IMG/VR virus record: IMGVR_UViG_3300037264_006619
Span: 1-28,443 of that record
DNA: 28,443 nucleotides
Source: a virus
Strand: one strand, 5' to 3'
Numbering within the stretch: the first letter of the stretch is position 1; every line of letters starts with the position of its first letter. The position numbers were made by a program, and so were the translations under genes. This document shows, piece after piece, positions 1 to 19,934 of this stretch. The notes beneath the pieces were generated by a model. That model was not told the origin of the DNA and ran no database searches. It worked only from the letters and a program-made list of their open reading frames with translations.

Positions 1-298
1 ACACGCTAATCGTGAAGGTGATGCCCCCGCCGCAGCACGGCGCCTGCGTGGTCGGGATGCCGACGTCGACGAAACTGCCGCCGTCGATTTGGACCTTGAA
101 GCCGTACAAATCAGTGAGGTCGGCGAGATCCCACGAGATAGTCGAGTTGTTCGTGACGGCGTTCGTCTGGACGCGGACAATAAACTGCGGCTCGGCCGCT
201 CGGTGCGTCGCGTAGACGCCCAGCGCCAACACCCCCACGAGCCCAATGATGGGCGGCGGGAGACGGGGCAGGCCAATCACGGGAGTCCTCCTCGTCAT
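1..298 (-). CDS. Membrane-anchored beta-domain protein (partial, C-terminus beyond the window)
   Basis: An open frame begins with ATG at 298 and stays open for 99 codons to the left edge of the window. Its ATG overlaps the stop codon of the upstream YkgJ-type gene as ATGA (295-298), the coupling used throughout this operon. The N-terminus is basic and proline-rich (MTRRTPVIGLPRLPPP), followed by one hydrophobic segment at about residues 17-31, then a beta-strand-rich region with aromatic residues (motifs ISWDLADL and YGFKVQIDGG) that resembles a fibronectin III or similar sandwich domain. A Cys-Cys-Gly-Gly-Gly stretch follows. This architecture suggests an N-terminal signal anchor exporting a small beta domain, so a lysis-accessory or surface protein is possible. 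I do not recognise the family. The frame is convincing from the overlap and composition; the function is unknown. Confidence 0.6.
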   Translation of the reverse strand, partial: MTRRTPVIGLPRLPPPIIGLVGVLALGVYATHRAAEPQFIVRVQTNAVTNNSTISWDLADLTDLYGFKVQIDGGSFVDVGIPTTQAPCCGGGITFTISV

Positions 299-789
299 GC
301 GTCGAGCGTCCAGTCGGTGACCGCGACGTCGCCATGCGTTTCGCGTAACCGAAATTCCCCACGCAGCGCCGCGACCCGGTCCTCGCGCGCGAACAACTCG
401 CGGCGCGCACCACTGATCACGACAACGTGATGCACGCCGTCGGCGACGAAATTGTCGATGAAGCCCTTGAGCGCCACGGTCGCGTGGCCTGGATACCCTG
501 GGTCTTCAACGAGTTGAATGTGTTCGCCAGTCCCGTCCGGGCACAACACCCCGTGGACGCGGTCGGGGCGCATGTCCGCCGGGCCGGCGCCAGCCAACCA
601 CAGACACACAAAATTCTGACAGGTCGTCGGCCGACGCGCGTAGATGGCGCAGCCGCTGGCTTTGTGGGCGTGCGGGCACCACGCGTCCTTCGGCTTCTCC
701 AGTTCCACGACGCCGAGCACTTTGCAACAGAGCGTACAACTCCCGCAGGTGCGCGGCGCGACCACGCGGAGTGGAATCGTGGGGTGCAT
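295..789 (-). CDS. YkgJ-type Cys-cluster (zinc/iron-chelating) protein
   Basis: This 164-residue protein carries the CxxCxxCC signature of the YkgJ zinc- or iron-chelating domain family at C15, C18, C21 and C22. Further cysteines follow at C38, C47, C57 and C62 in the usual setting: Gly-Cys-x-Ile-Tyr, then Arg-Arg-Pro-x-x-Cys, then Phe-x-Cys. Family members bind a metal ion through these eight cysteines, but their biochemical role is poorly known. The C-terminal 90 residues are a compact alpha/beta region without a motif I recognise. ATG at 789 was chosen; an in-frame TTG lies at 804, but neither has a strong ribosome-binding site. A strong hairpin (806-842) separates this gene from the upstream virion gene, and its stop overlaps the next start. 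The family call is strong. The presence of such a protein in a phage morphogenesis operon is unusual. Confidence 0.8.
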   Translation of the reverse strand: MHPTIPLRVVAPRTCGSCTLCCKVLGVVELEKPKDAWCPHAHKASGCAIYARRPTTCQNFVCLWLAGAGPADMRPDRVHGVLCPDGTGEHIQLVEDPGYPGHATVALKGFIDNFVADGVHHVVVISGARRELFAREDRVAALRGEFRLRETHGDVAVTDWTLDA

Positions 790-805
790 CGTGGCCCCGG
801 TCAAT

Positions 806-3583: not shown

Positions 3584-4068
3584 CGCGTCAACCTCCACCG
3601 CCGAATCACGCTCGGGCTCGTTACGTCCGCCCACCCAGGCGTTGACCCAAAGTTGCACGAGTTGACGATGATGTCCACCACATACACGTTCGGGCTATCA
3701 TGCACGGGCGGCGCCACGCCGTGATAGTAGGCCACCACGTCGATCCCGAAGTCGTTCCGCTCCGGGCGCCAGCAGAACCCGAACCGCGTGTCAATCGCGC
3801 GCAGCGCCGCGACCACCCCGTCGAGAAAGTCCCACGTCCCTCCAGGCTGGTGGACGCAGTGGGCGGCGAACTGCCCGGGATTGGCAGCCGCGTACGCCGA
3901 GACGGTGCTGTACAAGAACGGCAAGGGCACCGTCGGGGGGTCGGCCCCGCCCCCCGTAGGCGGCTGCGCGCTGCCCTCGAGCACCGCGCCCTCTTCGAGG
4001 AAGCGCAGGTTGAACCGCCCGCGCCGCACCGGGCGCACGGGCAGCGGCGGCCACCGCAACGTCGTCAT
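3580..4068 (-). CDS. Conserved phage protein of unknown function (tail region)
   Basis: This 162-residue protein has a proline- and glycine-rich N-terminal third (residues 35-50) and a compact C-terminal domain. The C-terminal motifs are GGTWDFLDGVVAALR, DTRFGFCWRP, D-V-V-A-Y-Y-H and VYVVDIIVNSC, ending P-G-W-A-D-V-T. I recall similar C-terminal domains as stand-alone genes or appended to tail proteins in many tailed phages; their function has not been defined to my knowledge. Two cysteines and a His are conserved-looking, but no catalytic site is evident. The start at 4068 overlaps the stop of the giant ejection protein gene as ATGA (4065-4068), implying coupled translation. Confidence 0.7.
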   Translation of the reverse strand: MTTLRWPPLPVRPVRRGRFNLRFLEEGAVLEGSAQPPTGGGADPPTVPLPFLYSTVSAYAAANPGQFAAHCVHQPGGTWDFLDGVVAALRAIDTRFGFCWRPERNDFGIDVVAYYHGVAPPVHDSPNVYVVDIIVNSCNFGSTPGWADVTSPSVIRRWRLTR

Positions 4069-7000
4069 CGGCGCGCCTCACGCGACGGCCCGACGAGGAG
4101 CACCCCAGGATTGTCGGTGCGCCCGTCGCGCAGCGCGACCCATCCGTTGACCGTCTTCTCGATCTGCGACGACGGGTAGCCGACGAGAATGCCCGCCGGC
4201 CGATTCAGCGCCTTCCACAGTCCTTCATCGAGCTCGCCCTGCACCACTTGTTGCGCGAGCGGCGTCGCAAGCTGAATCGCCCGTGTGAACGCGGGGCCGC
4301 CATACGTACGCGACGGTTCCGCGCCAGTCAGATATTGCCCGACCGCGTTCAGCTCGCGCACCCACATCATGGTGTTCATCGCCGTGCTCAGGACGTTCCC
4401 CGCGAACTCGGCGAACAGGCCGTCGTCGTCCTCGGTGCGCCCGAACGCGCGGCTGAGCACCACTTCCATCATCGCCGGCAGGATGTAGAGCAGCGAGAGC
4501 CCCCACAGGAACTGCGCGAGCGCGAGCGGCCCAGACGACCCGGCCCGCAACGCGCGCGTCTGGTTGAACATCACGCTGCCGTAGGAATAGAACATCAGGA
4601 ACGCGCGGGCCATCGGTCCCCCACGCTGCACCTGCGCGAGGTCTTTGATTTGCCCGCCGCCCTGTGAATCGAGCACCGCCTGGTCCGCGAGCGCGACCGC
4701 GCGCGCCTCGTCGTTGCCGCCCGCCATCGCTTTCTCGTACGCCCCGAGCCAGGTGGGCACGTCGGCGATGCGCTGCGCTTGCCCGATGTGCCACAGCCAC
4801 GTATCCAGCACATGCCCGGAGTTGAGGCGCCCGCCCGTGGTGGTCCGCACCAGCGCGTTGAACCAACTGTCCTCGCGCTGCAACTCCGACCGCACCTCGT
4901 TCAATTCAGGCAGCGCCGTCCCGCTCCGGTTCCGCATCATCGGCGACCGCTCGTGAATCCACCCGACGGTCGACTCCATCGTCGCCGAGTCGCGCAGCCA
5001 GCGCCCGAGCCCCTGGAGTACCCAGGACGTGCCCACGCGGTGCATGCCGTTGAAGAGCCCGAGCGGCTGCTGCATGGCGCTCCAGGCCGCCCACCCCATA
5101 GAAGACACCTGCACGCCCGTGCGCAGGAACGTCGCGCCCGCGTCACCACCGTTGCCGCTGGGCAGATGGCCGACACGAATGTCTTCCAGCACCCCGCGGA
5201 ACTGGTCGAAGACCGAACTATCGCCAGACACCGCGAACAGCGCCGCGGCGATCTGTTCGTCACGCAGCAGGCGCGACAAGTCGATCAACGTCTCGCGATG
5301 CGTGAGGTCGTGCAGCACCTGGTCAACGTGCGAGAACAACACGTCCATGTCGAACTTGAGGGGCTGGCCCACGTTGGCGCGCCGCGCCATCGTATGCCCG
5401 TGACGCGTCATCATCGAGGCGCCCGCGGCCTGCACCCCGAGCTTCGCGTCGCTCACGGCGACGGCGCGACCGGCGGCCGCACTACGGCGCGGGTCGTACT
5501 GCAACGGGTAGTACCCGCCCTCGAGCGTGCCGAACGGGGTCGTGACCGCCACGCGTTCCACCCGCGTCGGCGGCAACCCTGTGATGCGCTCTTCGTGGGC
5601 CGCCACCTCGTCCCAGAAACTTTCGAGGAACGCCCACACGTCCCGCACGTACGCCCAATCGCGTGCCTCGAGCGTGCCGAGAATCGCCTCGACTTGGGCC
5701 GGCGAGTACTCGTGCAGCACCCGCTGTCGGTTTTCGACCGCACCCCAATTCAGCGCCACCGAGAGCACGGTCTCTTTCGTGAGGCTCACGCCCGCCGCAG
5801 GAATATGGCGACGCGTCCCCCAGCCGCGCCCGCCGCCCGGGTAGTGGGCATCGAGGATCGCCTTGAGTCGCGCGCCTTCCACGCGCCGCCGGTCGGCCTC
5901 GAGGTCGGCCGCGCGATTGAGTGGACGGATGAACGCCTCCCACAGCGCGCCGCCATCCTGTCCCCCGTCGAGGATGCGCGCGTAGGTGGCCACCTTGGTG
6001 TGCGCGGCGAACACCGCCTTGAGCCGGCGCAGTCGCGTTTCACTGGCCGTCTCGTCCACTCGAATCGCCTTCGTGGGCGCGTGCGCGGCAAGCGACGTGA
6101 CCACCGTGTCGCGTTGCGCGAGGAACGACCGCGCCTCGGCAGACGCGAGCAACCGGTTCTTCAGCCGCGACAAGTGTTCGATCTGCCGGACGGTGTCGCG
6201 CACCTGGCGCAGCTCATCGCGCGACAACTCGCGGTAATTCACCGCGCGCGCCGCCTCAATCGTGGCGGCGTCGATGTGCTCGGTCGGCAACTCCTCGGCC
6301 GCGCGGTCCTCGAGCCAGTTGACCAGACTGGCGCGTGATGCGAGCGTGCGGGCCGAGACGGGCACGAACTCGTACTTGTCCAGTATCGCGAGAATCTGCT
6401 GCAGGTAGGACGGACCCGCCGTGCCGAGGCGCTGCTGCACCGCGACCGTTTCGAATCGGCGCGCGTAGCGGGCGGTGGCCGTGGCTTCATCGCGGGCGTC
6501 GTTGGCCGCCCGATACAGCTCGACCGCCAGCCGCTGCTGTTCCTTCTTCGCCACCGCGCGCTCGTAGTGGCCGGCGAGTGCCGCCTCGCTGGCCTCCTTC
6601 GCTGACCGCCGCGCCGCCGCCCAGTACGTGTCGGGACGAAGGTCACGAATCTTCGCGAGGCCGATGATACGGTCGGCTTCCGCGCGCACCTGTTGGTCGG
6701 TGGGCCCTTGCCGCACCGCGGTCGCGACCGCCCGACGCCCTGCCACGTCTTCCGCCTGCACCGCCGCGATCCCCGCCTTGGCTTGGCGCGCTCGCCGACG
6801 GAACGCGCGCAGCTCCGCGTTGATCACGCGCGTGCGCCCCTCGGTACTCTGCACCGCTTTCCGCGCCTCACCCCGCAATCGCCCGTCGGCCAGGATGTCC
6901 CCGTGAAGCGCGCGCATGCGGGCCGCCGTGTCCGCGGCCACCGCTTCTTCGAAGGGCACGGCCTGCGCCAATGCATTCAGGAGCTCGTCACCGCTCGTGA

Positions 7001-10000
7001 ATCCCAAGACCTCCGCGGCCGCGTCAGGGGTGACGCCCTCGCTCGCGTAGGTGCCAGGCACCAGCGCCGCCTCGCCGTAGCCGTCCACGACGGCCGCCTT
7101 GTCCAGTCGCAAGGGAGGCGGCTGGTCCGCCTGGGCCGGTTGCGTCAACGCGTCCAATGCCGCGTAGACGCGGTCCTGCGCCAATTCCCGCGCGACCTCG
7201 ACGCGCACCGCGGCGGCTTGCGCCTGCCACCAGGCCGTGCGCTCGCGCCGCAACTCCTGCATCGCCTCGCGCTGCACGCGGTCCTGCGCCTGGCCACTCT
7301 CCGCGCGCACATCCTCGAGGTAGGCCTGGAACTCGAGCACCGACATGCCCGCCTCTTCCGGCGTCGCGAAGATGGGCGCAATCGCCGCTTCTTGGATGGC
7401 CGCGTCAATCTCGGCTTGTGTGGCCACCATGCGGTCGAACGCCGCCGTGACTTCCGGCTGGAGCGGAAGCCCCGCAAAGGTCAATCGCTGGTAGACCTGA
7501 ATCATCCAGGTCCGCAGCCGCGCGAAGGCGTCGCGGAGCGCCGGGGTCGGCGCCGTCGCCTGCAGGAGGTAGGTCTCGTACAGCTCGGCGAAGGCTTCCT
7601 GTTGCGCGACCGTCAGCGACGTGCCGGGGGTGCCCCCAACGGCCGCCATGAACGTCCCGTAGTCCGCGACCATCTGCCGTTGGGTCTCGGTCAGCGTGGC
7701 CGGGTCGAGTGCGCGGAGGTCGGTGGTCACGACCCGGAGCATCTCGAGATACGCATGCCCGGTCTCGTGGAGAAACGTCGAGAGGTCGGCCTCCGACAAC
7801 AACGCGATGCGGAACTGAAGGTCGGCCCCGAAGGTGATCCGGCCACGCGGCCCCTGGAAGAGCGTGCGCGTGGTCGGGTCTACGGGGTCGAAGGCTGCGC
7901 GCGCGCCAAGGTCGCCCGCATTGCCTCGAGCTCCTCCGGCGACGTCTCCCGCCCGTTCAGGGCCTTGACCATCGCCGCCAGCTCCTCCGCGGTCGGCAGG
8001 CCCGCCCTCGGTGCCTGAATCCGGCGGGCGACCTTGCCATCTGGCGTCATGGACGTGTCCTTCTGGGTAGACAACGGTCACCTCCTTCTCGGCCCTCAAG
8101 TCGAAGACCGCAATCTGCTCGTGCGCAACGCCCAACGCGAGCGCCTCTTCTACCGTCTCCACGACTCGCACGATGTCGAGGAAGAACCGCCCGGTCTCCA
8201 CCTCGTGCCACCCCCCGAGATGGTTGCCAGGGATCTGCAACAGGGCGGCCTTCGCTGTGACGTAGTCGACGAACTGCGTGCCGGTCACCGCCGCGAAGTT
8301 GGCGAAGACTTGGGTGTCATCCCCGTACGTCGAAACCGAGAACCCGTCCGCAGCCAGCTGCCCCGCGACCGGGGCGTACGTGAACCCGCTCTTCTTCCCG
8401 CCCTCCGCTATGCGTCGGAGGATATCGTCGTATTCGACCCGCTGCGGCGCTTTGCCTTGCCCGGCTTGGACGCGGCCGGTGAGAACGCGAGCGCGTACAG
8501 GTCCAGCTCCGAGCCCGGTATTTCTCCGGGGAGGTCCGCTGGGATCGAGGCCACCACGTCCGCGGGCAACGGAAACGGCGGGCTGGAGGGGCTGAACATA
8601 GCCCGCACGTAGGCGCTCTTCGTCAAGGGCCACCCGTGGCGGCGTATGTAACCAAGCAGGCTCTGTGACCCCGCCGGCCAGTGTGAGTAGTCGCGCGTGG
8701 AACTCATCAGGGGTGATGTTACCAACTTGGTGGTCCTTCCACAAGGCCTTGACGGTCGCGGCCAGCTTCGCGCCCGTCGGGCCCCGCTTCTGCTCGGGGG
8801 CGAACAACCCGCGGGCGACCTCCCACGTCACCGACTGCACCTCACGCGGAAGCACCCCGAGCTCCGCCGCGAGCCGGAAGTGCATCTCCGCGTAGAGGGG
8901 ATTGGCGCCGCTCAATCCGAGCAAGTTGTCCGAGGGCCCGCCCATCACGAACATGACTTCGGGGGAGGCTTGCGAGAAGGGCTCGAGATGGGTCGCCGCC
9001 ACCGAGTGCGTGTCGATGGTGACCGCGTCAGGGTTCCACGGGTCAATGATGTTGTTGTAGAACGACCGCACCTTGTGCTCCGTCGAGAGCTGGTGCGAGA
9101 TGCTGTCCATGGACCCGTCGCGCAGCACGCTGATCGCGCCCGCGATGGCGTCGTACCCGCCCCACCCGACCTTAGCCTCGGCCCCCGCCTTGGTACGGGC
9201 GAAGTCCCCGTCCTCGCCTTCCGGCAGAATGACGCGATAGGACCGCGGCGCCGTGGTCTCGTCCAGTACCCGCAGCAAGCGCGCCTGGCCGTCCAGCGGG
9301 AGGGCACGCCGCGCGACGCCCACCCAATCCTTGCGGTTCTGTGCGACCTCCTGCTGCTGCGACCGCACCACGGCACGCGCCGCCCGGTCCTGCGCGGCGA
9401 GGTTCCCGCCCGCTGCCGCGACCCGGGCGCGCGCCTTCTTCACCAACCCTGGACGCGCCGTGTGTGCCTGCGCCACGATGACCTTGAAGAGGTCTGTCGT
9501 GAACACGGGGTTGTCGCGCTCGGCCGCAAAGTACTGCGTGAAGACGCGCCGGCCCAGGTCCACGTTCTTGAACCAGTCCATCTGCGGGCTGAGGATGGCC
9601 ACCACCGCAGCGGCCTGTTGGTCGGTGACCCCGTAGTCGTCGGCCAGGTCGTGCATGATGCGGTGCGCGCCGACATACCACGTCCGCGCGCGCTCGCGCA
9701 TCTCCTCCGACGCGAGATGCCACAGCCACCGGAGGTTCTCCACCCCCTGCTCGATGAACGCCTCGACTTGTCCCCGCGGGTCGGCCGCCCGCGCCGACGC
9801 CGGCAGCTGCGGGTAGGTGCGAATCGTCTCCATGTACCGCTCGAGAATCGGCGCGACCCGCGCCGTCCCTTGCCCCTGGAGCACGACCGAGAGGTCGGTA
9901 CGCTGCACCGTGCCCTCCGGCGCGGCCGGGGCCTCGACTGCCGTGACCTGGCGCGTGGATAACCGGGGGCGCCCATCAATCACCGATGCCGGACTCACCT

Positions 10001-12242
10001 CGAGCCGAGGGAGCCGCGGACCCGTGAACGTCGGCCGGTCGCCTTGGTAGAGCGTCTGGGCGCCCTCAGGAACGTCCTCCTCGACGGCAGGGGTGACCGG
10101 CGCGGGGGGGATGGGGACGCCGTCCTGGGGCACCGTCGCCGTGTCTGGGCCCACTGCGAGCGGGAACCGGGCGAACAGCGCCTCGGGGGTGGTCCCCATC
10201 CGCTGCGCCATGACCGTGTAAATTTGCGCCACGTTCGCCGCATACGCGCGCGACGCCGTGGTCGCCTCAACGCCCGCGCGGGCCGCCATCGCCAGGAACC
10301 CGCTGTCGCCCTGCAGCTGCTGCGCGAGCGGGCCGGCGATAGGCCCGAGCGTCTCCGCAGGACCAACCCCCTCCACCAGCGGGACCGCCTCGACCTCTTG
10401 CCGAAGGGCCAGGAGGGCCTGGGCCGTCTCCTGCAGTTGCTGGGCGCCTTCCGCGAGCTCACGCACGTTGTGGCCCAACGGGTCCACTTTCAACTCGTTG
10501 GCGAAGAACGCGTGATGCTCGGTGCCGGCGAGCTTGGCGGCGTAGGTCGCGGTTGGAATCACCAGGTCCGCCCCGGCGGCTTCGGCCTCGGCCAGCGCCT
10601 CAGGGTGGCCGGTCAACTCCGCCGCGATGAGGTCGGGGTGCACATCGCGGTCCGTCCAATACTGTCGGAAAGTATCCGTCGGGGCATGGAGCGACTCCAC
10701 GAGGGTGCCACGCGTCGCGGACGCGACGTAGGCCTCGAAGGCCGTCGGGGACCGCTTGGCGGTCTTGCTCTCAGTCGCGCCCTGCGCGAGCCCCTCGAAG
10801 AAGGCCTGCTGCTGCTGCGAGGCCGCGAACCGCGCGGCCTCACCCCGATAGGCCACCGCCGCGGTGCCCCCACCGAACGCCCCGCCACCCAGCGCCCCGG
10901 CGATCATCTCCTCTGGCAACCGCCGCACCACGTCCGCCAGCGAGAAGTCTTTCTGCTCGGTCGCGGCCGCCGCGAACAACTCTTCGACCACCGCCTGCGC
11001 GCCTTCGGTGATCGCCTCGGCTGGTGCGTCGCTCAGAATCGCCTTGCCCGTCGCCGTGATGAACTGGGGCTTCAGGGGCGCCACGAGCGCCCGCTGCGCG
11101 ATCTCCTCTGCGGTCTCGCGTCCGAATGCCCGCACCAGCCGTCCACCCCACCGCAGGCCGGTGACCATGTCCAGCGCGGCCACCGCGGTCCCGCCAAGGA
11201 AGACGAGGTTCGGCGCGACCGCCTCGGGGTCCGCAGCCTTGGTGGCCGACTGCACCGCGCCAATCCCGAACACCTCGCCCACGGTGAAGGCGCCAATCGC
11301 CGCCCCAATGCTCGCTTTGAACCCGAGGGCCGCCGCCCCCACCCCGCCCGCGGCGCCGGCCGCCACCATCGGGATGATGATCGGCCCCTGCTCGATGAGG
11401 GTCTCGGCCACGTACTTCGCCACCGACGCCGGGTCCGTCGGGTCCACATCCGCGAGCTGCATGTCGGGCCCGCGCCGCGCGCGTTCGACCGCGTTGCGCT
11501 CACGCCGTGTGCGCCCGCGTGTCACCAGCGCCTCGTGAAAATCATCCCCGAGCAAGCGGCCCTCGTCGGAGTCCATCAGCTCCGCGTTCCGTCGGCCACG
11601 CTCACCGACCCACTCCTCGAAGCCGCCCACGAGCTCGCCTACGGTATCGCTCGCACGCAGGAATGCGCCCATCATCCAGAAGTGGTCCTCCAGCTGGGTG
11701 AGCGTGTCGAGGTCATCCGCGGCGGCGCCGGAGGTTTCGTAGTCCGCGGCGATCCAGGCCGCCAGCTTCGGCGCCCGCGCGAGGAGGTCCGCGTACTCAC
11801 GCTGCTTGTCGACCGCGCGCACCGCCTCGAGGTTGCGCTCGACCACGGGCACCGGGGTGCCGCCGTGCCGCTTCGACAGTCGCTGCGCTTCGGCGCGCTT
11901 GTCTGGGGTGGTAGCTGCGTGGTCGCGGGCCGCCGACGCCACGTCAGGCCTCGGGAGGCGCGCGATGATGTCTCGGTAGGGGTTCGGGGCCGCCTTCCCC
12001 GTGATCGTGTCCACGTCGTCCACGTAGCGGTTCCAGTGGTCCGCCTGCTTGAACTGCGACGGCCAGTGCCCAGACGCATCGGGGGTCGAGCCCGCGCGAT
12101 ACGCGGCCCGGTAGTCGTAGGCGCCTGAATCTGGGTCAGGGTCGAGCTTCAGCGTCGTGGCGTGTCCCGCGAACCACTCGCGGAAATCCACCTCCTCGTC
12201 GTCGGTCCAATCAGGGGCCGTCCCCCACGCGGGCTGAGCCAC
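4065..12242 (-). CDS. Giant multi-module internal virion/ejection protein of polyvalent type with zincin peptidase
   Basis: The protein has 2725 residues, from a GTG at 12242 directly after the upstream TAA. Visible in order: charged helical N-terminus (1-270); hydrophobic Gly/Ala segments at 283-330, 343-362 and 446-466 (membrane insertion likely); helical region to 720; T-L-Y-Q-G at 730-734; a helical module (785-1200) with LSPQMDW and I-D-T-H at 1076-1079, resembling HhH-GPD glycosylase-type domains; an unrecognised alpha/beta module (1268-1392); a Gly-rich linker (1400-1450); T-L-F-Q-G at 1460-1464; a zincin with H1492-E1493-T-G-H1496 and candidate third ligand E1549, E1553 or E1556; long helical arms (1640-2130); and a C-terminal region with a hydrophobic segment at 2571-2597. 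It follows the two internal-protein genes, the place of the T7 gp16 gene, so ejection into the host is inferred. No lytic transglycosylase motif was seen. Similar domain mixtures are known as phage polyvalent proteins. Confidence 0.85.
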   Translation of the reverse strand: MAQPAWGTAPDWTDDEEVDFREWFAGHATTLKLDPDPDSGAYDYRAAYRAGSTPDASGHWPSQFKQADHWNRYVDDVDTITGKAAPNPYRDIIARLPRPDVASAARDHAATTPDKRAEAQRLSKRHGGTPVPVVERNLEAVRAVDKQREYADLLARAPKLAAWIAADYETSGAAADDLDTLTQLEDHFWMMGAFLRASDTVGELVGGFEEWVGERGRRNAELMDSDEGRLLGDDFHEALVTRGRTRRERNAVERARRGPDMQLADVDPTDPASVAKYVAETLIEQGPIIIPMVAAGAAGGVGAAALGFKASIGAAIGAFTVGEVFGIGAVQSATKAADPEAVAPNLVFLGGTAVAALDMVTGLRWGGRLVRAFGRETAEEIAQRALVAPLKPQFITATGKAILSDAPAEAITEGAQAVVEELFAAAATEQKDFSLADVVRRLPEEMIAGALGGGAFGGGTAAVAYRGEAARFAASQQQQAFFEGLAQGATESKTAKRSPTAFEAYVASATRGTLVESLHAPTDTFRQYWTDRDVHPDLIAAELTGHPEALAEAEAAGADLVIPTATYAAKLAGTEHHAFFANELKVDPLGHNVRELAEGAQQLQETAQALLALRQEVEAVPLVEGVGPAETLGPIAGPLAQQLQGDSGFLAMAARAGVEATTASRAYAANVAQIYTVMAQRMGTTPEALFARFPLAVGPDTATVPQDGVPIPPAPVTPAVEEDVPEGAQTLYQGDRPTFTGPRLPRLEVSPASVIDGRPRLSTRQVTAVEAPAAPEGTVQRTDLSVVLQGQGTARVAPILERYMETIRTYPQLPASARAADPRGQVEAFIEQGVENLRWLWHLASEEMRERARTWYVGAHRIMHDLADDYGVTDQQAAAVVAILSPQMDWFKNVDLGRRVFTQYFAAERDNPVFTTDLFKVIVAQAHTARPGLVKKARARVAAAGGNLAAQDRAARAVVRSQQQEVAQNRKDWVGVARRALPLDGQARLLRVLDETTAPRSYRVILPEGEDGDFARTKAGAEAKVGWGGYDAIAGAISVLRDGSMDSISHQLSTEHKVRSFYNNIIDPWNPDAVTIDTHSVAATHLEPFSQASPEVMFVMGGPSDNLLGLSGANPLYAEMHFRLAAELGVLPREVQSVTWEVARGLFAPEQKRGPTGAKLAATVKALWKDHQVGNITPDEFHARLLTLAGGVTEPAWLHTPPRVALDEERLRAGYVQPLQPAVSVARGRGGLDPSGPPRRNTGLGAGPVRARVLTGRVQAGQGKAPQRVEYDDILRRIAEGGKKSGFTYAPVAGQLAADGFSVSTYGDDTQVFANFAAVTGTQFVDYVTAKAALLQIPGNHLGGWHEVETGRFFLDIVRVVETVEEALALGVAHEQIAVFDLRAEKEVTVVYPEGHVHDARWQGRPPDSGTEGGPADRGGAGGDGQGPERAGDVAGGARGNAGDLGARAAFDPVDPTTRTLFQGPRGRITFGADLQFRIALLSEADLSTFLHETGHAYLEMLRVVTTDLRALDPATLTETQRQMVADYGTFMAAVGGTPGTSLTVAQQEAFAELYETYLLQATAPTPALRDAFARLRTWMIQVYQRLTFAGLPLQPEVTAAFDRMVATQAEIDAAIQEAAIAPIFATPEEAGMSVLEFQAYLEDVRAESGQAQDRVQREAMQELRRERTAWWQAQAAAVRVEVARELAQDRVYAALDALTQPAQADQPPPLRLDKAAVVDGYGEAALVPGTYASEGVTPDAAAEVLGFTSGDELLNALAQAVPFEEAVAADTAARMRALHGDILADGRLRGEARKAVQSTEGRTRVINAELRAFRRRARQAKAGIAAVQAEDVAGRRAVATAVRQGPTDQQVRAEADRIIGLAKIRDLRPDTYWAAARRSAKEASEAALAGHYERAVAKKEQQRLAVELYRAANDARDEATATARYARRFETVAVQQRLGTAGPSYLQQILAILDKYEFVPVSARTLASRASLVNWLEDRAAEELPTEHIDAATIEAARAVNYRELSRDELRQVRDTVRQIEHLSRLKNRLLASAEARSFLAQRDTVVTSLAAHAPTKAIRVDETASETRLRRLKAVFAAHTKVATYARILDGGQDGGALWEAFIRPLNRAADLEADRRRVEGARLKAILDAHYPGGGRGWGTRRHIPAAGVSLTKETVLSVALNWGAVENRQRVLHEYSPAQVEAILGTLEARDWAYVRDVWAFLESFWDEVAAHEERITGLPPTRVERVAVTTPFGTLEGGYYPLQYDPRRSAAAGRAVAVSDAKLGVQAAGASMMTRHGHTMARRANVGQPLKFDMDVLFSHVDQVLHDLTHRETLIDLSRLLRDEQIAAALFAVSGDSSVFDQFRGVLEDIRVGHLPSGNGGDAGATFLRTGVQVSSMGWAAWSAMQQPLGLFNGMHRVGTSWVLQGLGRWLRDSATMESTVGWIHERSPMMRNRSGTALPELNEVRSELQREDSWFNALVRTTTGGRLNSGHVLDTWLWHIGQAQRIADVPTWLGAYEKAMAGGNDEARAVALADQAVLDSQGGGQIKDLAQVQRGGPMARAFLMFYSYGSVMFNQTRALRAGSSGPLALAQFLWGLSLLYILPAMMEVVLSRAFGRTEDDDGLFAEFAGNVLSTAMNTMMWVRELNAVGQYLTGAEPSRTYGGPAFTRAIQLATPLAQQVVQGELDEGLWKALNRPAGILVGYPSSQIEKTVNGWVALRDGRTDNPGVLLVGPSREARR

Positions 12243-14060
12243 TTATCTCTTGCCTCGGTCATACTTCCCGGCTGCGGCGTCGCGATACACACGCTTGATC
12301 GTGCGCTCCACCACTGGCTTGCCGGCCTCGACCAAGCCCGCGATGATCCGCGACCGCTCAGCCGGCGGGACCACGATGCTATCAATGGACGGCGACACCA
12401 GTGGGGCCGCCTGCGGCGCGACGGGCACACCAGCCGCCGTCGCCGCATCCACTTCCCACGCGAGTTGTGGGCGCCTGGGCCCATCGAACCATCCGGCCCC
12501 GACAATCCCGACGGGCAGGAGCAACTTGTCAAGGATGGCCTCGTGCTCCTCGTCGGTGAGGTTGCGTTTCAGCTCGGCGCGCTTCGCCGCGGTCTCGCGC
12601 TCGACAGACTCATAGAACCGGTCCACCTCGGCGACATCGGCCGGCTTCTTCGACGCCGGGCTCAATGACTCCACCCCACGCAACGCCCGCTGCGTCATTT
12701 GATTCTGCCGGGTCACGTTCGACAGATACGAGATGTCCTCGGGACTCTTCTTCCCGCCCCGCAGCTGCGCCTGCAGCGTCTGCAGCTGGTCCATGTCGGT
12801 CTTGTCGAGCAGGTTGACGTAGTCGCGGTCGAGGTTCACCTGGTCCACGAACCGCTGGCGCTCCTCGGCGCTCCCGTGCGCCATCCGCAGCAGCTCGCCC
12901 CGCACGCGAATGTTCGTCTTCACGGCGACCGCACCGGTCACGCCTTTGTTGCGGTCACGATAATGCTCGAGCTGCGCCGCGGCCCCGGGCGACGTCAGCT
13001 TCTGCCACTCCGTCACGGGCACCTTCTGCCCCGTGTCGATCAATCGCTTGATGTTCGACGCCACCGCCCGCTGGCCATCTTGCTCGTCGCGTTCTATCAC
13101 GGCCTGCTCGTGTTCCAGACGCCGCACGATGTCGTCCTCGAGCTTGCCCTCGTACGACTCCTGCGCCGCGGCGCGCCATTCCGCCATCGGCCGCGTCGCC
13201 ATGACCTTCGCGACCGCCTCCTGGGCCTGCTTGTCCTCGGTGCCCGCCTTGAGTAACCTCGTCACCTTTTCCAACGCCGGCCCCGTGATGCGCGGCGGGC
13301 CATCGGGTGGATTCACCGCCGCCAGGAGCTCGCGCGCCGCGTCCACCTTCTCCTCGGCCACGAGCTGCTCAACGGCGCCGCCGTACGCCTCATTCCACAG
13401 CGCCTGCTTCGCGCGCGCGAGCGCCTCCGGCCCCATCCCCACGCGCGCCGCGTGCTTCACCAGCGTCTCTTCTGCGAGCGCCACATGCCCGGCGGACACG
13501 GTCGGGTCCGCGCCGATGTGCGCGACGGCAAGCGCCACACTGTTCTCGATGAGCGCCGTCGATTCTTTCGTGTCGAAGTCGCGCATCTCGCGCGCCACAT
13601 GCTGATAGACCGTCGAGTGGATGCCAATCGACCGTTGCAAGCGCACCTTTTGGAACGCGGCCTTTTGTCGAGGCGTGCCGAGCGTGCCCTCGATCTCACC
13701 GGCCACCTTGTCGAACTCCGTGGAGATGGTCTCCGGCAAGCCGAAGGCGGCCTGCCCTTTGGTGTTCAACGCGCCCGTCGTCGGCGCGTGCAACCGCTCC
13801 ATCTCCCAGACGGCGAGCCGGTTGGTCGCCGACATCACGCCAATCTCTTCGGCCTCTTCACGCGCGCGCTCGCGCTGGTCGAGAATGCGCGTGGCCGCGC
13901 CCGTAATGGCGCCCCCGACGTCCCCTAGGGCGCCGTACAGTTGGGCCTGTGCCCGCGCCACGCCGACGCCCGCAGAAGCCTCGGTCTCACTCGCGCGGCG
14001 ATACGCGCCCGGAAGCGGGTCGGTCAGTACGCGCCGTCGCAGCGTCGGAACTGTCGGCAT
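12243..14060 (-). CDS. Internal virion protein (gp15-position, helical)
   Basis: This 605-residue protein is almost entirely helical, rich in Ala, Glu, Arg and Gln, with heptad-like stretches such as RILDQRERAREEAEE near residue 60 and many charged helices to about residue 480. The C-terminal 100 residues are Pro/Ala/Val-rich, then basic. No catalytic motif or membrane segment is evident. It lies between a gp14-like protein and the giant ejection protein, the slot of gp15 in T7-like phages, whose product forms part of the internal core and of the DNA-ejection tube. ATG 14060 was chosen; a GTG directly upstream (14063) is an equal candidate, and AGGA lies 5-8 bases before them. The stop at 12243 abuts the next start. 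The role is inferred mainly from position and composition. Confidence 0.75.
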   Translation of the reverse strand: MPTVPTLRRRVLTDPLPGAYRRASETEASAGVGVARAQAQLYGALGDVGGAITGAATRILDQRERAREEAEEIGVMSATNRLAVWEMERLHAPTTGALNTKGQAAFGLPETISTEFDKVAGEIEGTLGTPRQKAAFQKVRLQRSIGIHSTVYQHVAREMRDFDTKESTALIENSVALAVAHIGADPTVSAGHVALAEETLVKHAARVGMGPEALARAKQALWNEAYGGAVEQLVAEEKVDAARELLAAVNPPDGPPRITGPALEKVTRLLKAGTEDKQAQEAVAKVMATRPMAEWRAAAQESYEGKLEDDIVRRLEHEQAVIERDEQDGQRAVASNIKRLIDTGQKVPVTEWQKLTSPGAAAQLEHYRDRNKGVTGAVAVKTNIRVRGELLRMAHGSAEERQRFVDQVNLDRDYVNLLDKTDMDQLQTLQAQLRGGKKSPEDISYLSNVTRQNQMTQRALRGVESLSPASKKPADVAEVDRFYESVERETAAKRAELKRNLTDEEHEAILDKLLLPVGIVGAGWFDGPRRPQLAWEVDAATAAGVPVAPQAAPLVSPSIDSIVVPPAERSRIIAGLVEAGKPVVERTIKRVYRDAAAGKYDRGKR

Positions 14061-14069
14061 CACTGTGTC

Positions 14070-14621
14070 CTATCGGTTCGGAGTCCCCCACCCGTAGCGC
14101 GTCGCCAACGTCGAGCCCTGATTCAACAACGACGCCGCGCCGCTCAAATAGGCGGCGGTGCCGGCGGCGTTCCCCGCCCGCTCGAACGCGACGCCTTCTT
14201 TGCGACTGATGCGTGCGCGCTCTCGCAGGTCCACCGCTTGCACCTGGTAGCCCCATGCCTCGCGCGCCGCGTTCGTCCGAATGGTCAACGCGTCGAGCTC
14301 GCCCAGAAACGCCGCGTCGGCCTGCACATCCGCCGCCGACCCCGACGACACGTCGATGTTGGCGCCCGCGAACCCCGCCCGCTGCGCGCCCACGACACCG
14401 CGCACCTGCGCGCGGAACCGGCCCTCCTGTTCCACGCCACGCTCGACCGCGTCCTGCGCCTGCAACTGCGATACGGCCGCGTTGTATTCGCTCAGCGTCG
14501 CGCTGCCCTCCGCGACCGCCCGTTGAGCCTTCCCTGCGGCCTTCGCGGCTTTGCCCTGCTTGTACGACGAGTAGGCCGAGAGGGCCATCCCGGCGATGAG
14601 CATTCCTGTCACGACGCCCAT
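14070..14621 (-). CDS. Internal virion protein, T7 gp14-like
   Basis: This 183-residue protein opens with a short hydrophobic helix (VVTGMLIAGMALSAYSSY), then a Lys/Ala helix (KQGKAAKAAGKAQ), a long Gln/Glu/Ala helix and a Ser/Gly turn (GANIDVSSGSAADV). It ends with a second Ala/Gly-rich helix and a short basic tail. This plan, an N-terminal membrane-seeking helix plus long amphipathic helices, is that of the T7 gp14-type core protein. On infection that protein is ejected and inserts in the outer membrane. It is the first of three consecutive ejectosome genes here. It starts 3 bases after the tail tubular protein B stop. The fold and role are well supported by position and layout; sequence similarity to T7 itself is probably low. 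Confidence 0.75.
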   Translation of the reverse strand: MGVVTGMLIAGMALSAYSSYKQGKAAKAAGKAQRAVAEGSATLSEYNAAVSQLQAQDAVERGVEQEGRFRAQVRGVVGAQRAGFAGANIDVSSGSAADVQADAAFLGELDALTIRTNAAREAWGYQVQAVDLRERARISRKEGVAFERAGNAAGTAAYLSGAASLLNQGSTLATRYGWGTPNR

Positions 14622-14623
14622 AG

Positions 14624-16837
14624 CTACCCTCCCACCTCAACGCTCGGTAACACGCCCAAGAGCGTCAATGGCAGCGGCTCCGTCTGACGAATCACGAACC
14701 GCCCATGGTCAGTGAACCCGGCCGTGATGTTGTGCTCGAGCGCGTCGTCCACGAGCCCGCTACTCGCCTGCCACGTCTCCGGCTTGAACGCCAGCAAGTG
14801 GGCGCTGTCCGGCCCCGCCCAGAACGACTGCGCCGACTTCTCCACAAGCACCGTCAGGCTCTGCACGCGCTTGCGCTTGTCACGAATCGTGGACCCTGAC
14901 ACATCGAGGTCGAGCGTCTCGACCTCCGCGTAGCGAATCGGAATGCCGACGTGAATCACGCTGTAGGCGGCGGACAAGGTGAGTGCCCCCGCAGTCACCC
15001 GAAAGCTGCTCGCGCTCGGATGACTAGGGTCACCGTTGAAGACCACCTGTCCATCGCCGAGTACCGCGACGATCTGCCCCTCAAGATGCCCGAGTCCCGA
15101 CACCACCGCCGTCGGCGTGCCCGAGTAACTCAAGCCGGCATCCATGAAGAATGCGTCGGCCCGGGCCAACACCACCCGTGACGCCATGCGCTCGATGTAG
15201 CGCACCGCGACGGCGTTGATCGTGCGCGTCACGAGCAGGTAGACCGCGTCCTCACCAGACTCGGGCACCACGCACACATCTTTGAACGCCCCGACGGCGC
15301 CCGTGTCGTGACGGTGCCAGCCCCAAGTGTCGTCTTCGGGCACGTAGGTCAGACCGAGCAGCACGCCGTCTTCCCGCACCGCCCACACCACCGACTGCGG
15401 GCTCTGCGCGTAGTCCAGCTTGGTGATTGTTTCATCATCGAACAAGTGCCCCGCGAAGAGCGTCAGGTCGCGCCCCGTCAACCCGCTCGCCCCGGACTCG
15501 AGCGCCAGGTCGCGCACGATGCGCCCCCGCGCCTGGACGTAGATCACGCTTTGCCCAATGACGACCGGGACCACCGCCGACGCGCCCCAGTAGCTAATCT
15601 GCTCGGCCTGCAACGACGTGGGGCTGATGGGCCCGTCGCCCGCCCCCCCCACGAGCCACTCGCCCGTGCCCGTCAAGAGCACGAGGGTCCGCAGCCCAAT
15701 CAGATGCCGCACCGGTTGCCGTTGCTTGCCAGCCAGACGCAACGTGATGGCGTCGTCTTCCTGCAGCGGCGAGCTGATGCCGAAGTTGCTCGGGAACCCG
15801 ATGCGCGACGACCACACGGTCTCCGGCTCCGTCCGCGACGCGGCATACCACCGACGCTGTTGGTAGTACGCCACCATCGACGGGTAAAGATTCGGCGCGT
15901 TGAAGAGCCGCACCGCGAGGGACGGGGACTGCGAAAAGTCCGGCGGGAACCCGATGTCGTTGAACGTGAGCTGCCCCACGGCGGACCCGATAAACCCGTA
16001 TACGTTGTTGCGGAACGGGTCGAGATACAGGTAGTACTCGGCCGCGCCGGCCACGGCGGCCCAGCTCAATTCGAAGGGGTTGGTTTTCGTCGGCCCCGTC
16101 GGGCGGTAAATCGCGAACGGCGTCGAGGGCTCGGACTCCTCGTACGTAGTGGCATCGGCCGCCGTCACTCGATACTGGAATCGTTGCCCGGTCGTGCCAA
16201 CGCTCGCGGGCCCTGTCAACGAGCCCGGCACCGCCACCGCGGGCACCGTCGTCACGGGCGTGACGGTCCAGCGCGTGAGTGTAAAGAACGTCAGGTCTTG
16301 CGGCACGACGTCGGGATGCACGAGCGCGACGACACTCCCCGATTGTTCCCAGCGCGGGAGCTGTGTCCCGCTGAACGGATGCGGCACTTCGTAGATGTTC
16401 CCCACGAGCGGATACCAGAACGTCGCGTTCGGGGGAATGTTGGCCGTGTGCGCGAGGATGCAGTAATAGTTGACCCCGCCCTGCACGACCAGGTCGCCCA
16501 CGACATACGGCGTCGCGATGTTCCAGGCGGCGACGCCCGCCACCGCCACCTGCGCGCCATTCTGGTAGAACCGGAAGTAGTTCGCGCCGCACTCGATCAC
16601 CACGCTCTGCCCGAGCGTCTCCGACACGTAGCGCAGGAACTGCACGTTGCCCGTCGGCGCCTTCGTGGACGCGACGTAGCGCGTGCCCGGCCGGTTCGCC
16701 ACGCCCCCGTGCCGCTGCACCATGAAGTTGCGACAGGTCCGCAAGCCGGTCTGGTAGCGCGCCGTGTCCGCACGGGCGGCAAGGGTCGGCGATAGTTCGC
16801 CGCCGGAGAACGACCGTTGCATCGCGCTCTGTGGCAT
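14624..16837 (-). CDS. Tail tubular protein B-like tail nozzle protein
   Basis: The protein has 737 residues. The N-terminal FSGGELSPTLAARADTARYQTG, the C-R-N-F-M-V-Q-R-H-G-G-V-A-N-R-P-G-T-R-Y segment and the later YPSMVAYYQQRRWYAAS and W-S-S-R-I-G-F-P-S-N-F-G segments are hallmarks of podovirus tail nozzle (tail tubular protein B / stabilisation) proteins. It forms the distal tail tube after tail tubular protein A. At residues 102-146 there is an inserted carbohydrate-binding-like unit (W-N-I-A-T-P-Y-V-V-G-D-L-V-V then PPNATFW) that closely resembles one in the tail tubular protein A-like gene upstream. The rest is beta-rich. ATG at 16837 overlaps the preceding stop by one base (TGATG). The family call is confident. 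Confidence 0.88.
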   Translation of the reverse strand: MPQSAMQRSFSGGELSPTLAARADTARYQTGLRTCRNFMVQRHGGVANRPGTRYVASTKAPTGNVQFLRYVSETLGQSVVIECGANYFRFYQNGAQVAVAGVAAWNIATPYVVGDLVVQGGVNYYCILAHTANIPPNATFWYPLVGNIYEVPHPFSGTQLPRWEQSGSVVALVHPDVVPQDLTFFTLTRWTVTPVTTVPAVAVPGSLTGPASVGTTGQRFQYRVTAADATTYEESEPSTPFAIYRPTGPTKTNPFELSWAAVAGAAEYYLYLDPFRNNVYGFIGSAVGQLTFNDIGFPPDFSQSPSLAVRLFNAPNLYPSMVAYYQQRRWYAASRTEPETVWSSRIGFPSNFGISSPLQEDDAITLRLAGKQRQPVRHLIGLRTLVLLTGTGEWLVGGAGDGPISPTSLQAEQISYWGASAVVPVVIGQSVIYVQARGRIVRDLALESGASGLTGRDLTLFAGHLFDDETITKLDYAQSPQSVVWAVREDGVLLGLTYVPEDDTWGWHRHDTGAVGAFKDVCVVPESGEDAVYLLVTRTINAVAVRYIERMASRVVLARADAFFMDAGLSYSGTPTAVVSGLGHLEGQIVAVLGDGQVVFNGDPSHPSASSFRVTAGALTLSAAYSVIHVGIPIRYAEVETLDLDVSGSTIRDKRKRVQSLTVLVEKSAQSFWAGPDSAHLLAFKPETWQASSGLVDDALEHNITAGFTDHGRFVIRQTEPLPLTLLGVLPSVEVGG

Positions 16838-17030: not shown

Positions 17031-19934
17031 TCAGTCTCGTTTGTGAATCCAATTGGCGTCGCCGTGGTCTTCCTGCTGCTGCTCCCGGCTCGAGACCGCG
17101 CTGGCCGTGTCGAGGGTGTGTAGGTACATCTTCCAGCACTTCTCGGCGAGGTCGCCCTCGCGCGCCAGCGACGGCGCCAGCTTCGACGCCAGCCGCCAAC
17201 TGAGCGCGTCCTCGAACAACGCGTCGGCGAAGTTCTCGGCACACGCCACGTAGGCCGTGTACTCGAGCACGGCGTCGGCCTCGTTCGTGAACACCATCAT
17301 CGCATCGGTGTCCGTCAACACGCGCCAGTACGTGGCGTTCGGGGGCTGGAAGTTGAGGTGCCCCAGGATGCACACGTAGAGCACGCTCGCGCGCACCACG
17401 AGCGCGCCCACGGCGTAGGTCTCGGTGGCGCTCCACGCCTCCACGGGGGTATCCCAGAGGCGCCCCACCCGAAACGGAATCGGCGCCGGGTCGAACCGCC
17501 GACCACTCGAGCCGACGATGCGCCGCGCGAACAGGCAGTCGTCAGGGTAACGGTAGGCGTAGGTCCAGTCCCCGTTGATCGGCTCGTTGACCCCGCCGGC
17601 CGCCAGGAACATCGGGTCCGTCTCCGCCACGGCGTCCTCGTTCCGCGCGTACTTGGTGGCGAACGCCCACGGGTGCTGGCGCAAGGTCTCGCGCAGCACG
17701 CGGTCAAAGAGGTGCTCGGCCGTGAGGGCTTCCCGGCTCTGCTCGCCCAACATGGCGACCGTCTTCGACACCCCGATCTTGAGCAACGCGTCGTTAATCA
17801 CCTGCAGTTCAGTAGCCACACAGCACTCACAGACATGCCGAAAGACGGCGAACTGTGTCAGCGACCCCGGAGCGAAGTACGCCTGCACAGTCGTCTCTTC
17901 GACACCACTCGAGATGTTGAACCGAAACAACCGCCCCGTCCTGTTGTCCATCACCCAGAAGCGGTCACCCGAGCGCGTCAATTCGATGTCGAGCAACGTC
18001 GTCGCGTCGTTGGGAATCGACGGGGTGTACGTCTGAATCACCACGCCGCTGGAGTTGAGCCGCTGCACCACCGGGCTGTTCGCCACGAGCAGCTCGCCAC
18101 CAGGAAGCACCGCCAGCCCCTTGAGGCCAGGGTTCGGACCCGCCCCGAGCGTGAGCACGGCGAAGTCGGCCATGGCCTGGTTCAAGGTCATGTTCCAGCG
18201 TTTGATCCGCTGGCCACCGACGGGCACATAGAGGCCGCCCGCCGTGTAGTACAACACGCCGTTGGCCTCATCGAGCGCAATCGCCCAGGTCGCCGTGATC
18301 TCGTGCGGCGTGGGATAGGTCACCGCGGCCGGGAACGGCGCGCCCGCCTGCCCATCGCCGGACGTCGCGTCCACCAGCCGCAGTTGTCCCAACCCCAGCG
18401 TCGAGCTGAAGGTGTTCAAAAACGACGCAAGCGTCACGCCCGAGCTACCCACGAAGTGGTAGCCGTTCCCGTAGAAGCCGACGTGCAACATGCCAGCAGT
18501 GTTCACCACGAGTTGGGCGGGAGACGGGTTGACAGGCGGGGGGGCACCAACGGGGTCGAGCGGGTCACTGATGAAGTCGATCTCGCTGGGATACGCCGTG
18601 CTGTGGTTCAGCGTGGGCGCGTCGAAGAGCTCGATGAGGTTCGTCCCGAAGACCCCCACGAGCAGGCGCTCGCGCGTGTGCAGCGGGCCATTGAAGTCCA
18701 AGATGGGACGACCGGTGTAGTCCACCGCCACCCCGGTTAACAGCGCACCGCCCACGGGGCGAATATCCACGAACGCGCCGGCGCGAATCTTCACCAACTG
18801 GGTCGAGGGCACGATGATGTCGTCCTCCTCGATGGTCGTGGCCTTCTTGCACCCGCCGAGTCTGAGGAACCCGCCAGACAACGCCGGGAAGAGCCCGCTG
18901 CTCGAGTTGCGTCGCACCCGCACCCAGTACTGCGTCCCCGCCACCACCGCCACCATACAGGTCGAGAGGCTCCGGTGGAGACTCCACTGGATGTTGTTCT
19001 CCTGGCCGGCCACAAAGACCAGAGCCCCGCAGTTGCCCGTGTACACCAACACATCCACGAGGTAGTTGCTCCCATGCGACCAGAACAACATGTCGCGCGT
19101 CTCGTCCGCGATGAACGTCCAGAATATCTCGCGCAGTGTGCCCGGCGCCGCGGTCGTGTCCACGCCGGCATGCTGATACGGGAAGCTCGTGATGGAAATG
19201 GCTGTGGCGCACGTCGTGCCGGCACTCGGCGGCGCCGAGGCCGCTTGCGACGTCAAGTTGAACGAAAATTCCACCCACCCGACCCGCGACGTGGAGGTAT
19301 CGCCGGCCACCGCATCGGCGTGCGCCGGGTTGCCTCCGAGCGCCCGCCAGAAGCACTGCGTGTAGTTCGTGGGGGGATACGTCACGGCCGGCGTGGGGCT
19401 CGAGATAATCCGGTGCCCCAATTCGATCACGATAACATCGCCCGCCACGATGGTGCCGGCCACCGCCTGCGGGGCGGCGAGCGAGCGCCAGATCCCGTCC
19501 GTCGCCGCAATCCCGGGGAAGTCCACGCTGTCCACGTAGTTGTTGATCAGCGTCGTGCGCACCACGGCCGATTGGCCGACCGCGAGGTAGGCGTGGAGCT
19601 TGTACCGCACAATCGAGTCGTTGGTCGGGGGGTCGATGTCATCGAGCCACCGCGCATTGACCTGGATGCACACATCGAGCGTGCCGCTCAAGGTCGCGGC
19701 CTCGAGCGGCGGGGTCACCCACCGTGTGGTGTAGTAGTCGTAGTTGCCTTGCTGGTTGGAGTTGAGGCGCAGGAGCTCGGGACTGCCGAGGTCCGCCTTG
19801 GACGTGGACAACTGAAAACAGGTGTGCGCCGTCCCGAACGGCGCCTCGAGCCCGAGCGGGCCCCACGTCCCGACCGCGGGCCCATCCACGCGCACGCGCG
19901 GCGACTCTTTCGAGAAGTAGTAGCGCGTGGCCAT
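17031..19934 (-). CDS. Fused tail protein: propeller-like N-terminal module plus tail tubular protein A
   Basis: The protein has 967 residues. Residues 1-230 form a beta-sandwich region (MATRYYFSKESP). Residues 240-360 resemble a PPC-type beta domain (FWTFIADET, VDVLVYTGNCGALV, TQYWVRVRR). Residues 475-690 look like NHL or SMP-30-type propeller blades (AVLPGGELLVANS, GDRFWVMDNRTGRLFRFNI). Residues 706-967 are a tail tubular protein A domain (TELQVINDALLKIG, LRQHPWAFATKYA, YRYPDDC), which forms the upper tail ring below the portal. An inserted carbohydrate-binding-like unit lies at 831-875 (PPNATYW). No stop separates the modules. V706 is encoded by GTG (17817-17819), exactly where a separate tail tubular protein A would be expected to start; the site before it is weak (GTGAG). 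The product may be a fusion, or both forms may be made. The start at 19934 lies 6 bases after the upstream stop codon. Confidence 0.85.
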   Translation of the reverse strand: MATRYYFSKESPRVRVDGPAVGTWGPLGLEAPFGTAHTCFQLSTSKADLGSPELLRLNSNQQGNYDYYTTRWVTPPLEAATLSGTLDVCIQVNARWLDDIDPPTNDSIVRYKLHAYLAVGQSAVVRTTLINNYVDSVDFPGIAATDGIWRSLAAPQAVAGTIVAGDVIVIELGHRIISSPTPAVTYPPTNYTQCFWRALGGNPAHADAVAGDTSTSRVGWVEFSFNLTSQAASAPPSAGTTCATAISITSFPYQHAGVDTTAAPGTLREIFWTFIADETRDMLFWSHGSNYLVDVLVYTGNCGALVFVAGQENNIQWSLHRSLSTCMVAVVAGTQYWVRVRRNSSSGLFPALSGGFLRLGGCKKATTIEEDDIIVPSTQLVKIRAGAFVDIRPVGGALLTGVAVDYTGRPILDFNGPLHTRERLLVGVFGTNLIELFDAPTLNHSTAYPSEIDFISDPLDPVGAPPPVNPSPAQLVVNTAGMLHVGFYGNGYHFVGSSGVTLASFLNTFSSTLGLGQLRLVDATSGDGQAGAPFPAAVTYPTPHEITATWAIALDEANGVLYYTAGGLYVPVGGQRIKRWNMTLNQAMADFAVLTLGAGPNPGLKGLAVLPGGELLVANSPVVQRLNSSGVVIQTYTPSIPNDATTLLDIELTRSGDRFWVMDNRTGRLFRFNISSGVEETTVQAYFAPGSLTQFAVFRHVCECCVATELQVINDALLKIGVSKTVAMLGEQSREALTAEHLFDRVLRETLRQHPWAFATKYARNEDAVAETDPMFLAAGGVNEPINGDWTYAYRYPDDCLFARRIVGSSGRRFDPAPIPFRVGRLWDTPVEAWSATETYAVGALVVRASVLYVCILGHLNFQPPNATYWRVLTDTDAMMVFTNEADAVLEYTAYVACAENFADALFEDALSWRLASKLAPSLAREGDLAEKCWKMYLHTLDTASAVSSREQQQEDHGDANWIHKRD

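Follow-up and report, generated by a model that had tools for sequence, protein, structure and literature searches.

The locus analysed here raises the question of what a 2725-residue protein is doing at the position where T7-like phages encode their third ejection protein, gp16, and whether enzymes carried within it could enter the host cell with the phage DNA. The window (the whole stretch of DNA analysed) is a 28,443-bp virus fragment, IMGVR_UViG_3300037264_006619. A first-pass annotation made from the sequence had placed the gene at 4065–12242, taking up 29% of the window and following genes in the gp14 and gp15 positions, and had read its product as a polyvalent-type protein. These coordinates are kept (the measured share is 28.8%), and the strand, which was not given at the time, is minus. 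The cassette consists of the following genes:

4065..12242, minus strand: giant ejection/polyvalent protein (2725 aa, GTG start)
12243..14063, minus strand: gp15-slot ejection protein (606 aa, without SLT according to profile searches and comparison with Bbp11)
14070..14621, minus strand: gp14-like internal virion protein (PF24072, 6.6e-9; phrog_418, 4.8e-26)

At ~68% GC chance open reading frames are often long (e.g. 694 aa on the opposite strand), so the length of the giant frame proves little by itself and homology must decide. Judged by its sequence matches the frame is real, as it has full-length relatives and matches to LPD22, DUF7178 and phrog_9880, the last covering residues 1458–2712 with an E-value of 5.5e-292. 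Its GTG at 12242 abuts the gp15-slot gene, whose TAA ends at 12243, and its stop overlaps the ATG of the next gene (ATGA).

Upstream of the gp14 and gp15-slot genes, profile matches identify tail tube genes, a GP7-type capsid protein and a head-tail connector (portal), and a 494-aa ORF at 26611–28095 lies where phage BPP-1 has its terminase and is matched, alongside BPP-1 TerL, to genes that other phages carry at the terminase position. The order in BPP-1 is identical (bbp12, internal virion protein; bbp11, transglycosylase; bbp10; tail fibre), and gene order agrees, where seen, in Pseudomonas AF, Caulobacter Jess A, Xanthomonas CP2, Cobetia Carin1 and others. The giant protein is therefore a relative of Bbp10 in the gp16 slot, the third gene of a gp14-gp15-gp16 cassette defined by the PF24072 homologue, the gp15-slot gene and synteny with BPP-1, which bears out the order initially reported. 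A tail or tape-measure identity is ruled out by the cassette position together with the homology of the core.

Bbp10 (Rauchvirus; annotated as 'crystallin beta/gamma motif-containing protein') shares its gene position, LPD22, zincin and core with the window protein, the cores being 34–35% identical over ~1,270 aa. Among the 19 giants compared, the N-terminal side aligns to about residue 712 and the C-terminal side over residues 1454–2724, and the last 1,270 residues are kept in the 18 relatives (10 metagenomic, 8 isolated phages). We refer to these two conserved ends as the chassis, which comprises:

11664..11927, minus strand: LPD22, residues 106–193 (PF18834, E 1.5e-14)
10824..11561, minus strand: membrane-type module, residues 228–473 (phrog_6958 'virion structural protein', 1.7e-14; hydropathy)
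4071..7883, minus strand: conserved C-terminal core including the zincin, residues 1454–2724 (phrog_9880; 34% identity to BPP-1 Bbp10)
4626..6005, minus strand: probable gp16-like ejectosome fold within the core, ~residues 2080–2539 (VIA-align)
4443..4526, minus strand: C-terminal hydrophobic segment, residues 2573–2600 (hydropathy)

LPD22 is N-terminal in nearly all of the giants scanned (also BPP-1, AF, Jess A, Carin1, CP2, PS25B.1 and the records L001, L007 and L084), which suggests that it is part of the ejection chassis rather than an enzyme, a role that has been mentioned as possible (PMC5512222). DNA-pattern searches for the N-terminal part returned almost no further loci. The first-pass annotation had also described membrane segments and a membrane-associated C-terminus, and hydropathy does place hydrophobic stretches at residues 288–363 and 2573–2600; the boundaries it set between modules fit the homology map well.

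An AlphaFold2 model of the core (residues 1440–2639, 11 sequences, mean pLDDT 68) was compared with solved structures using VIA-align. The three top-ranked matches were the T7 core protein 9jyy_I (Z 8.0, 238 residues), the PhiM1 ejectosome 8vb2_A (Z 7.9, 217 residues) and T7 7eyb_I (Z 6.6, 198 residues), where Z-scores of ~7–8 lie within the range that helical proteins can reach by chance; the remaining rows were unrelated proteins, mostly membrane transporters, at Z ≤6.4. Since ejectosome cores fill all three leading ranks and the slot was already set by synteny, a chance match seems unlikely. Foldseek gave no significant match to the PDB with the core model, a sequence search of the PDB with the core profile matched no solved structure, and PDB sequence searches with the whole giant protein or a DUF7178 profile yielded nothing useful. 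The T7 gp16 and PhiM1 tetrameric ejection proteins share with the window protein the slot after gp14 and gp15 and may resemble it in structure over residues ~2080–2539, whereas the window protein is twice as long as T7 gp16 and lacks the lytic transglycosylase with which the latter starts (PMC8954989, PMC11440229). A Pfam profile search of the giant protein found no such domain, as had been claimed from inspection; P22-like phages are also without one (PMC8954989), so the transglycosylase does not define the gp16 slot.

Considering homology, synteny, payload exchange, invariant catalytic-type residues and the ejectosome-like structural match together, we think it quite probable that the giant protein belongs to a BPP-1-like podophage, in which it would fill the gp16 position as the third ejection protein and the largest, with an exchangeable enzyme cargo. 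The ejection-slot identity proposed at the outset is upheld by the synteny with BPP-1 and by the T7 and PhiM1 matches; the literature searched contained no virion proteomics for the Bbp10-type family.

The cargo lies between the two ends of the chassis, in a bay that varies from ~150 to ~1,800 aa among the compared giants. In BPP-1 the bay is ~150 aa long and holds PBECR1, a predicted RNase, while the ~740-aa bay of the window protein holds DUF7178 and a small second module. Other bays contain ART-PolyVal (Jess A, 200 aa), LPD23 (AF, 310 aa), PBECR5 (Carin1, 880 aa), DUF7178 with PBECR5 (L004, 1,230 aa), or ParB- and GNAT-like domains with DUF7178 (L001, 1,830 aa); that of CP2 measures 560 aa, and in the more distant giants L009 and L014 DUF7178 is combined with ART-PolyVal and LPD38. 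At the sequence level this is direct evidence that unrelated enzymes are exchanged inside one chassis. The window protein itself joins several unrelated enzyme-type domains in one chain (LPD22, DUF7178, an HExxH zincin and a further module), and with PBECR1, PBECR5, ART-PolyVal, LPD23, ParB and GNAT shuffled through the same slot among its relatives the polyvalent label fits. In the window the bay contains:

8622..9845, minus strand: payload 1, DUF7178 module, residues 800–1207, HhH-GPD glycosylase-like (PF23802, 6.2e-22)
9072..9074, minus strand: K1057, predicted catalytic lysine of DUF7178 (29/29 polyvalent and 6/6 compact relatives)
9012..9014, minus strand: D1077 in T-I-D-T-H, predicted catalytic aspartate of DUF7178 (29/29 and 6/6)
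8103..8459, minus strand: payload 2, small unnamed module, residues 1262–1380, with a GGW...TG...LD motif

It could be argued that the giant protein is purely structural, a gp16-type protein whose enzyme-like modules are spacers or degenerate, given that no activity is known and that the bay is only ~150 aa in some phages. We consider this improbable, as the active-site-type residues of both the zincin and DUF7178 are invariant across ~30% identity and the bay domains are swapped for other enzymes, not for spacers.

DUF7178 also occurs in other very large phage proteins. A single 5,074-aa polypeptide (L017:3559-18783) combines SLT, inorganic pyrophosphatase, GNAT, ART-PolyVal and DUF7178, and an unannotated giant in L088 (Phage zth2-2) has an ART-PolyVal-like sequence (YHGT...GVYLTD, by eye) directly before DUF7178.

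The second payload module, of which the model mostly has pLDDT <50, matches gp34 of Synechococcus phage P60, which is annotated as an 'internal virion protein' (31.5%, E 7e-4); Gordonia and Fusobacterium phages encode further matching proteins, which are small and free-standing. A search with the Fusobacterium phage relative found none on plasmids, and DNA-pattern searches for this module returned almost no further loci.

The Pfam match of the DUF7178 module begins at residue 831, and its AlphaFold2 model is of high confidence (pLDDT mostly 90–98). By VIA-align the model resembles the 8-oxoguanine glycosylase AGOG (Z 6.8, 193 residues), human and mouse OGG1 (Z up to 6.7) and MUTYH (5.9), and no other matches recurred that spanned most of the module, the remaining rows being confined to a single helical hairpin. 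Nine residues (P886, W890, N893, K1057, D1077, H1079, Q1136, W1140 and R1144) do not vary among 29 polyvalent-type sequences and six compact relatives. The latter, ~200 aa long and encoded by phages of Streptomyces, Synechococcus and Maribacter, are also assigned to DUF7178 by Pfam (five scanned), and depositors named two of them 'glycosylase' and 'N-glycosylase/DNA lyase'. The invariant residues include K1057 and D1077, a pair with the arrangement of HhH-GPD enzymes, in which the catalytic aspartate lies in (V/I)DxH with a lysine ~18–20 residues upstream. Aligned by eye, AAGVIAALSPQ..W..NV of DUF7178 corresponds to IAVLLSAQ...D..VN of EndoIII and G-x-K...IDxH to GRK...VDTH, with a Lys-Asp spacing of 17–20 compared to 18.

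The HhH-GPD glycosylases AGOG, OGG1, MUTYH and EndoIII thus share with DUF7178 the Lys-Asp pair and, as VIA-align suggests, may share its overall helical fold; DUF7178 differs from them in its large helical insert and in showing no significant profile similarity. The PF00730 (HhH-GPD) profile has no match at E ≤10 in 16 records, and hhalign of DUF7178 against EndoIII and MutY is not significant, with or without the helical insert or with the compact relatives; we therefore do not file DUF7178 as HhH-GPD. A search of NCBIfam gave nothing relevant. Overall, from motif and model, DUF7178 looks, and probably works, like an HhH-GPD enzyme. The glycosylase-like helical module of the first-pass annotation accordingly stands in its resemblance to AGOG, OGG1 and MUTYH and in its Lys-Asp pair, but neither profile comparison nor Foldseek against the PDB gave it a significant match.

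If DUF7178 does act on DNA, its substrate could be the phage's own genome, with base repair or modification taking place at entry as by a packaged repair enzyme or a glycosylase-superfamily hypermodification enzyme. Enzymes of this superfamily are known in phage thymidine hypermodification, and the HhH-GPD-like features would suit such a role. However, the window (a fragment) contains no recognised base-modification genes, and the co-occurrence of DUF7178 with ART, PBECR and ParB payloads suggests conflict, so that we regard action on the phage's own DNA as conceivable and on balance unlikely.

An alternative substrate would be peptidoglycan, DUF7178 then being the cell-wall enzyme of the ejectosome, in place of a lost transglycosylase, and cutting the wall instead of DNA. 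This touches on the neighbouring gene, since BPP-1 keeps its SLT domain in Bbp11, next to Bbp10, whereas the window's gp15-slot protein has none; the latter aligns weakly to Bbp11, at both ends, and matches phrogs named 'endolysin' only outside their catalytic part, so that an automatic 'endolysin' label for it is probably wrong. The SLT profile PF01464 has no match in the window record or in any of the ten further DUF7178 records searched (eight of which have a Bbp10-type giant), but it does match in L084, where the core is the same and no DUF7178 was detected. Most DUF7178 giants checked are accompanied by gp15-slot forms of 583–606 aa without SLT, compared to 700–745 aa in BPP-1, AF and L084, the BPP-1 and L084 forms carrying SLT; and the noise-level Foldseek matches of DUF7178 include SltB3 and SltB1 (E 2.5–4). 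Against this, the gp15-slot protein that stands alongside DUF7178 in L013 is 699 aa long, although the SLT search found nothing there, and L017 has both domains in a single polypeptide. The case of L017 rules out strict exclusion of SLT by DUF7178 and means that DUF7178 is probably no substitute for a transglycosylase. The compact DUF7178 genes of Streptomyces, cyanobacterial and Maribacter phages also lie outside lysis clusters, and the K...IDxH pattern and the AGOG, OGG1 and MUTYH matches point to DNA. We therefore judge a peptidoglycan substrate very improbable.

The compact relatives are also found free-standing, outside structural clusters, and ejection is therefore not intrinsic to DUF7178. 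A virion placement in other phages is nonetheless suggested by genes following the terminase or portal and by gp205 of Rhodococcus phage E3, a DUF7178 protein annotated as a 'structural protein'. Five records (L025, L046, L054, L078 and L082) have free-standing DUF7178 genes of 466–835 aa shortly downstream of the terminase or portal, where MuF-type head proteins often occur.

The remaining enzyme-type module belongs to the chassis and was found between bay and core in every giant compared:

7443..7850, minus strand: zincin-like metallopeptidase, residues 1465–1600 (HExxH plus model helices)
7755..7769, minus strand: HETGH motif, residues 1492–1496 (sequence)

All 19 giants have an HExxH motif, in a shared context that typically reads (S/T)T-x-x-HE-x-x-H, and none of the aligned sequences that extend over H1492, E1493, H1496 and E1549 departs from these residues. 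In the core model HETGH lies on a helix (1487–1510) and E1549 on a second (1545–1561), the zincin arrangement of an HExxH helix and a further helix with a glutamate. The zincin, which had been predicted with HETGH at exactly this position, is thus supported at the level of motif and secondary structure. Zincins are the commonest polyvalent domain, and self-processing has been proposed for them (PMC5512222).

From these observations we infer a mechanism extending from packaging and ejection to cleavage, a DNA substrate and a role in conflict. The chassis (LPD22 and the hydrophobic segments on one side, the zincin and gp16-like helical core on the other) would be stored in the phage head, above the portal, and leave it ahead of the DNA; once reassembled, it would form that end of the entry channel which lies at the inner membrane or in the cytoplasm. 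The enzymes of the bay, DUF7178 and the small module, would thereby be delivered to the cytoplasm as the phage enters. Lying at the junction of payload and core, the zincin would most likely cut the chain, either releasing the payload or remodelling the complex; of these, a role in cargo release is the one we prefer. DUF7178 would most likely excise a DNA base by means of its Lys/Asp active site. Its target would be DNA that belongs to the host or is modified, or else lesions in the genome being delivered, and the reaction would serve takeover or counter host defences early on. The reading in full, in which a gp16-type protein is a delivery chassis whose cargo bay lies between membrane and protease modules, DUF7178 is an active DNA N-glycosylase/lyase injected before the genome and the zincin frees the cargo, is put forward tentatively, as a possibility; base excision would then be an injected weapon or shield of the first minute.

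The closest functional parallel is the virion RNA polymerase of N4, a proven ejected protein in which a zincin is followed by a large helical C-terminal domain (PMC12633501). It resembles the window protein in being a giant third ejection protein, in the order of zincin (C1) and helical domain and in its early enzyme cargo, although that cargo is an RNA polymerase, unlike that of the window protein. With the polyvalent proteins of Iyer et al. 2017 (PMC5512222) the window protein shares LPD22, the zincin metallopeptidase, the exchange of enzyme domains and predicted injection with DNA; the main text of that study contains neither 'glycosylase' nor 'Bordetella', and we found in it no description of a fixed ejectosome chassis around an exchangeable bay. 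The first-pass interpretation holds for the most part. Polyvalent proteins as a class, and the ejectosome as an enzyme carrier (N4), are already known, while the description of chassis and bay across BPP-1-like phages, drawn from sequence comparison, and the predicted glycosylase-like enzyme as cargo are new. If the proposal is correct, the DNA-entry machine of a widespread podophage group doubles as a modular protein-delivery device, the enzymes of its bay probably work within the first minute of infection, and novel early takeover and counter-defence enzymes may be sought there. It would further offer a testable role for DUF7178, a family so far without a function, and would suggest LPD22, once thought possibly enzymatic, as a part of the ejection chassis.

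Several other genes in the window deserve mention. The gene at 17031–19934 (minus strand) encodes 967 aa, of which ~700 residues are without a family match (apart from a weak NHL repeat) and the C-terminus is tail-tube-A-like (phrog_394 at 707–966); its BPP-1 counterpart has only ~223 aa. CBM_5_12-like stretches (PF02839) occur in this protein (E 0.019) and in the tail protein at 14624–16837 (minus strand, E 4e-6). Finally, a 169-aa protein encoded at 298–804 (minus strand), with no Pfam match at E ≤0.01, has a CGSCTLCC motif and resembles a small metal-binding protein.
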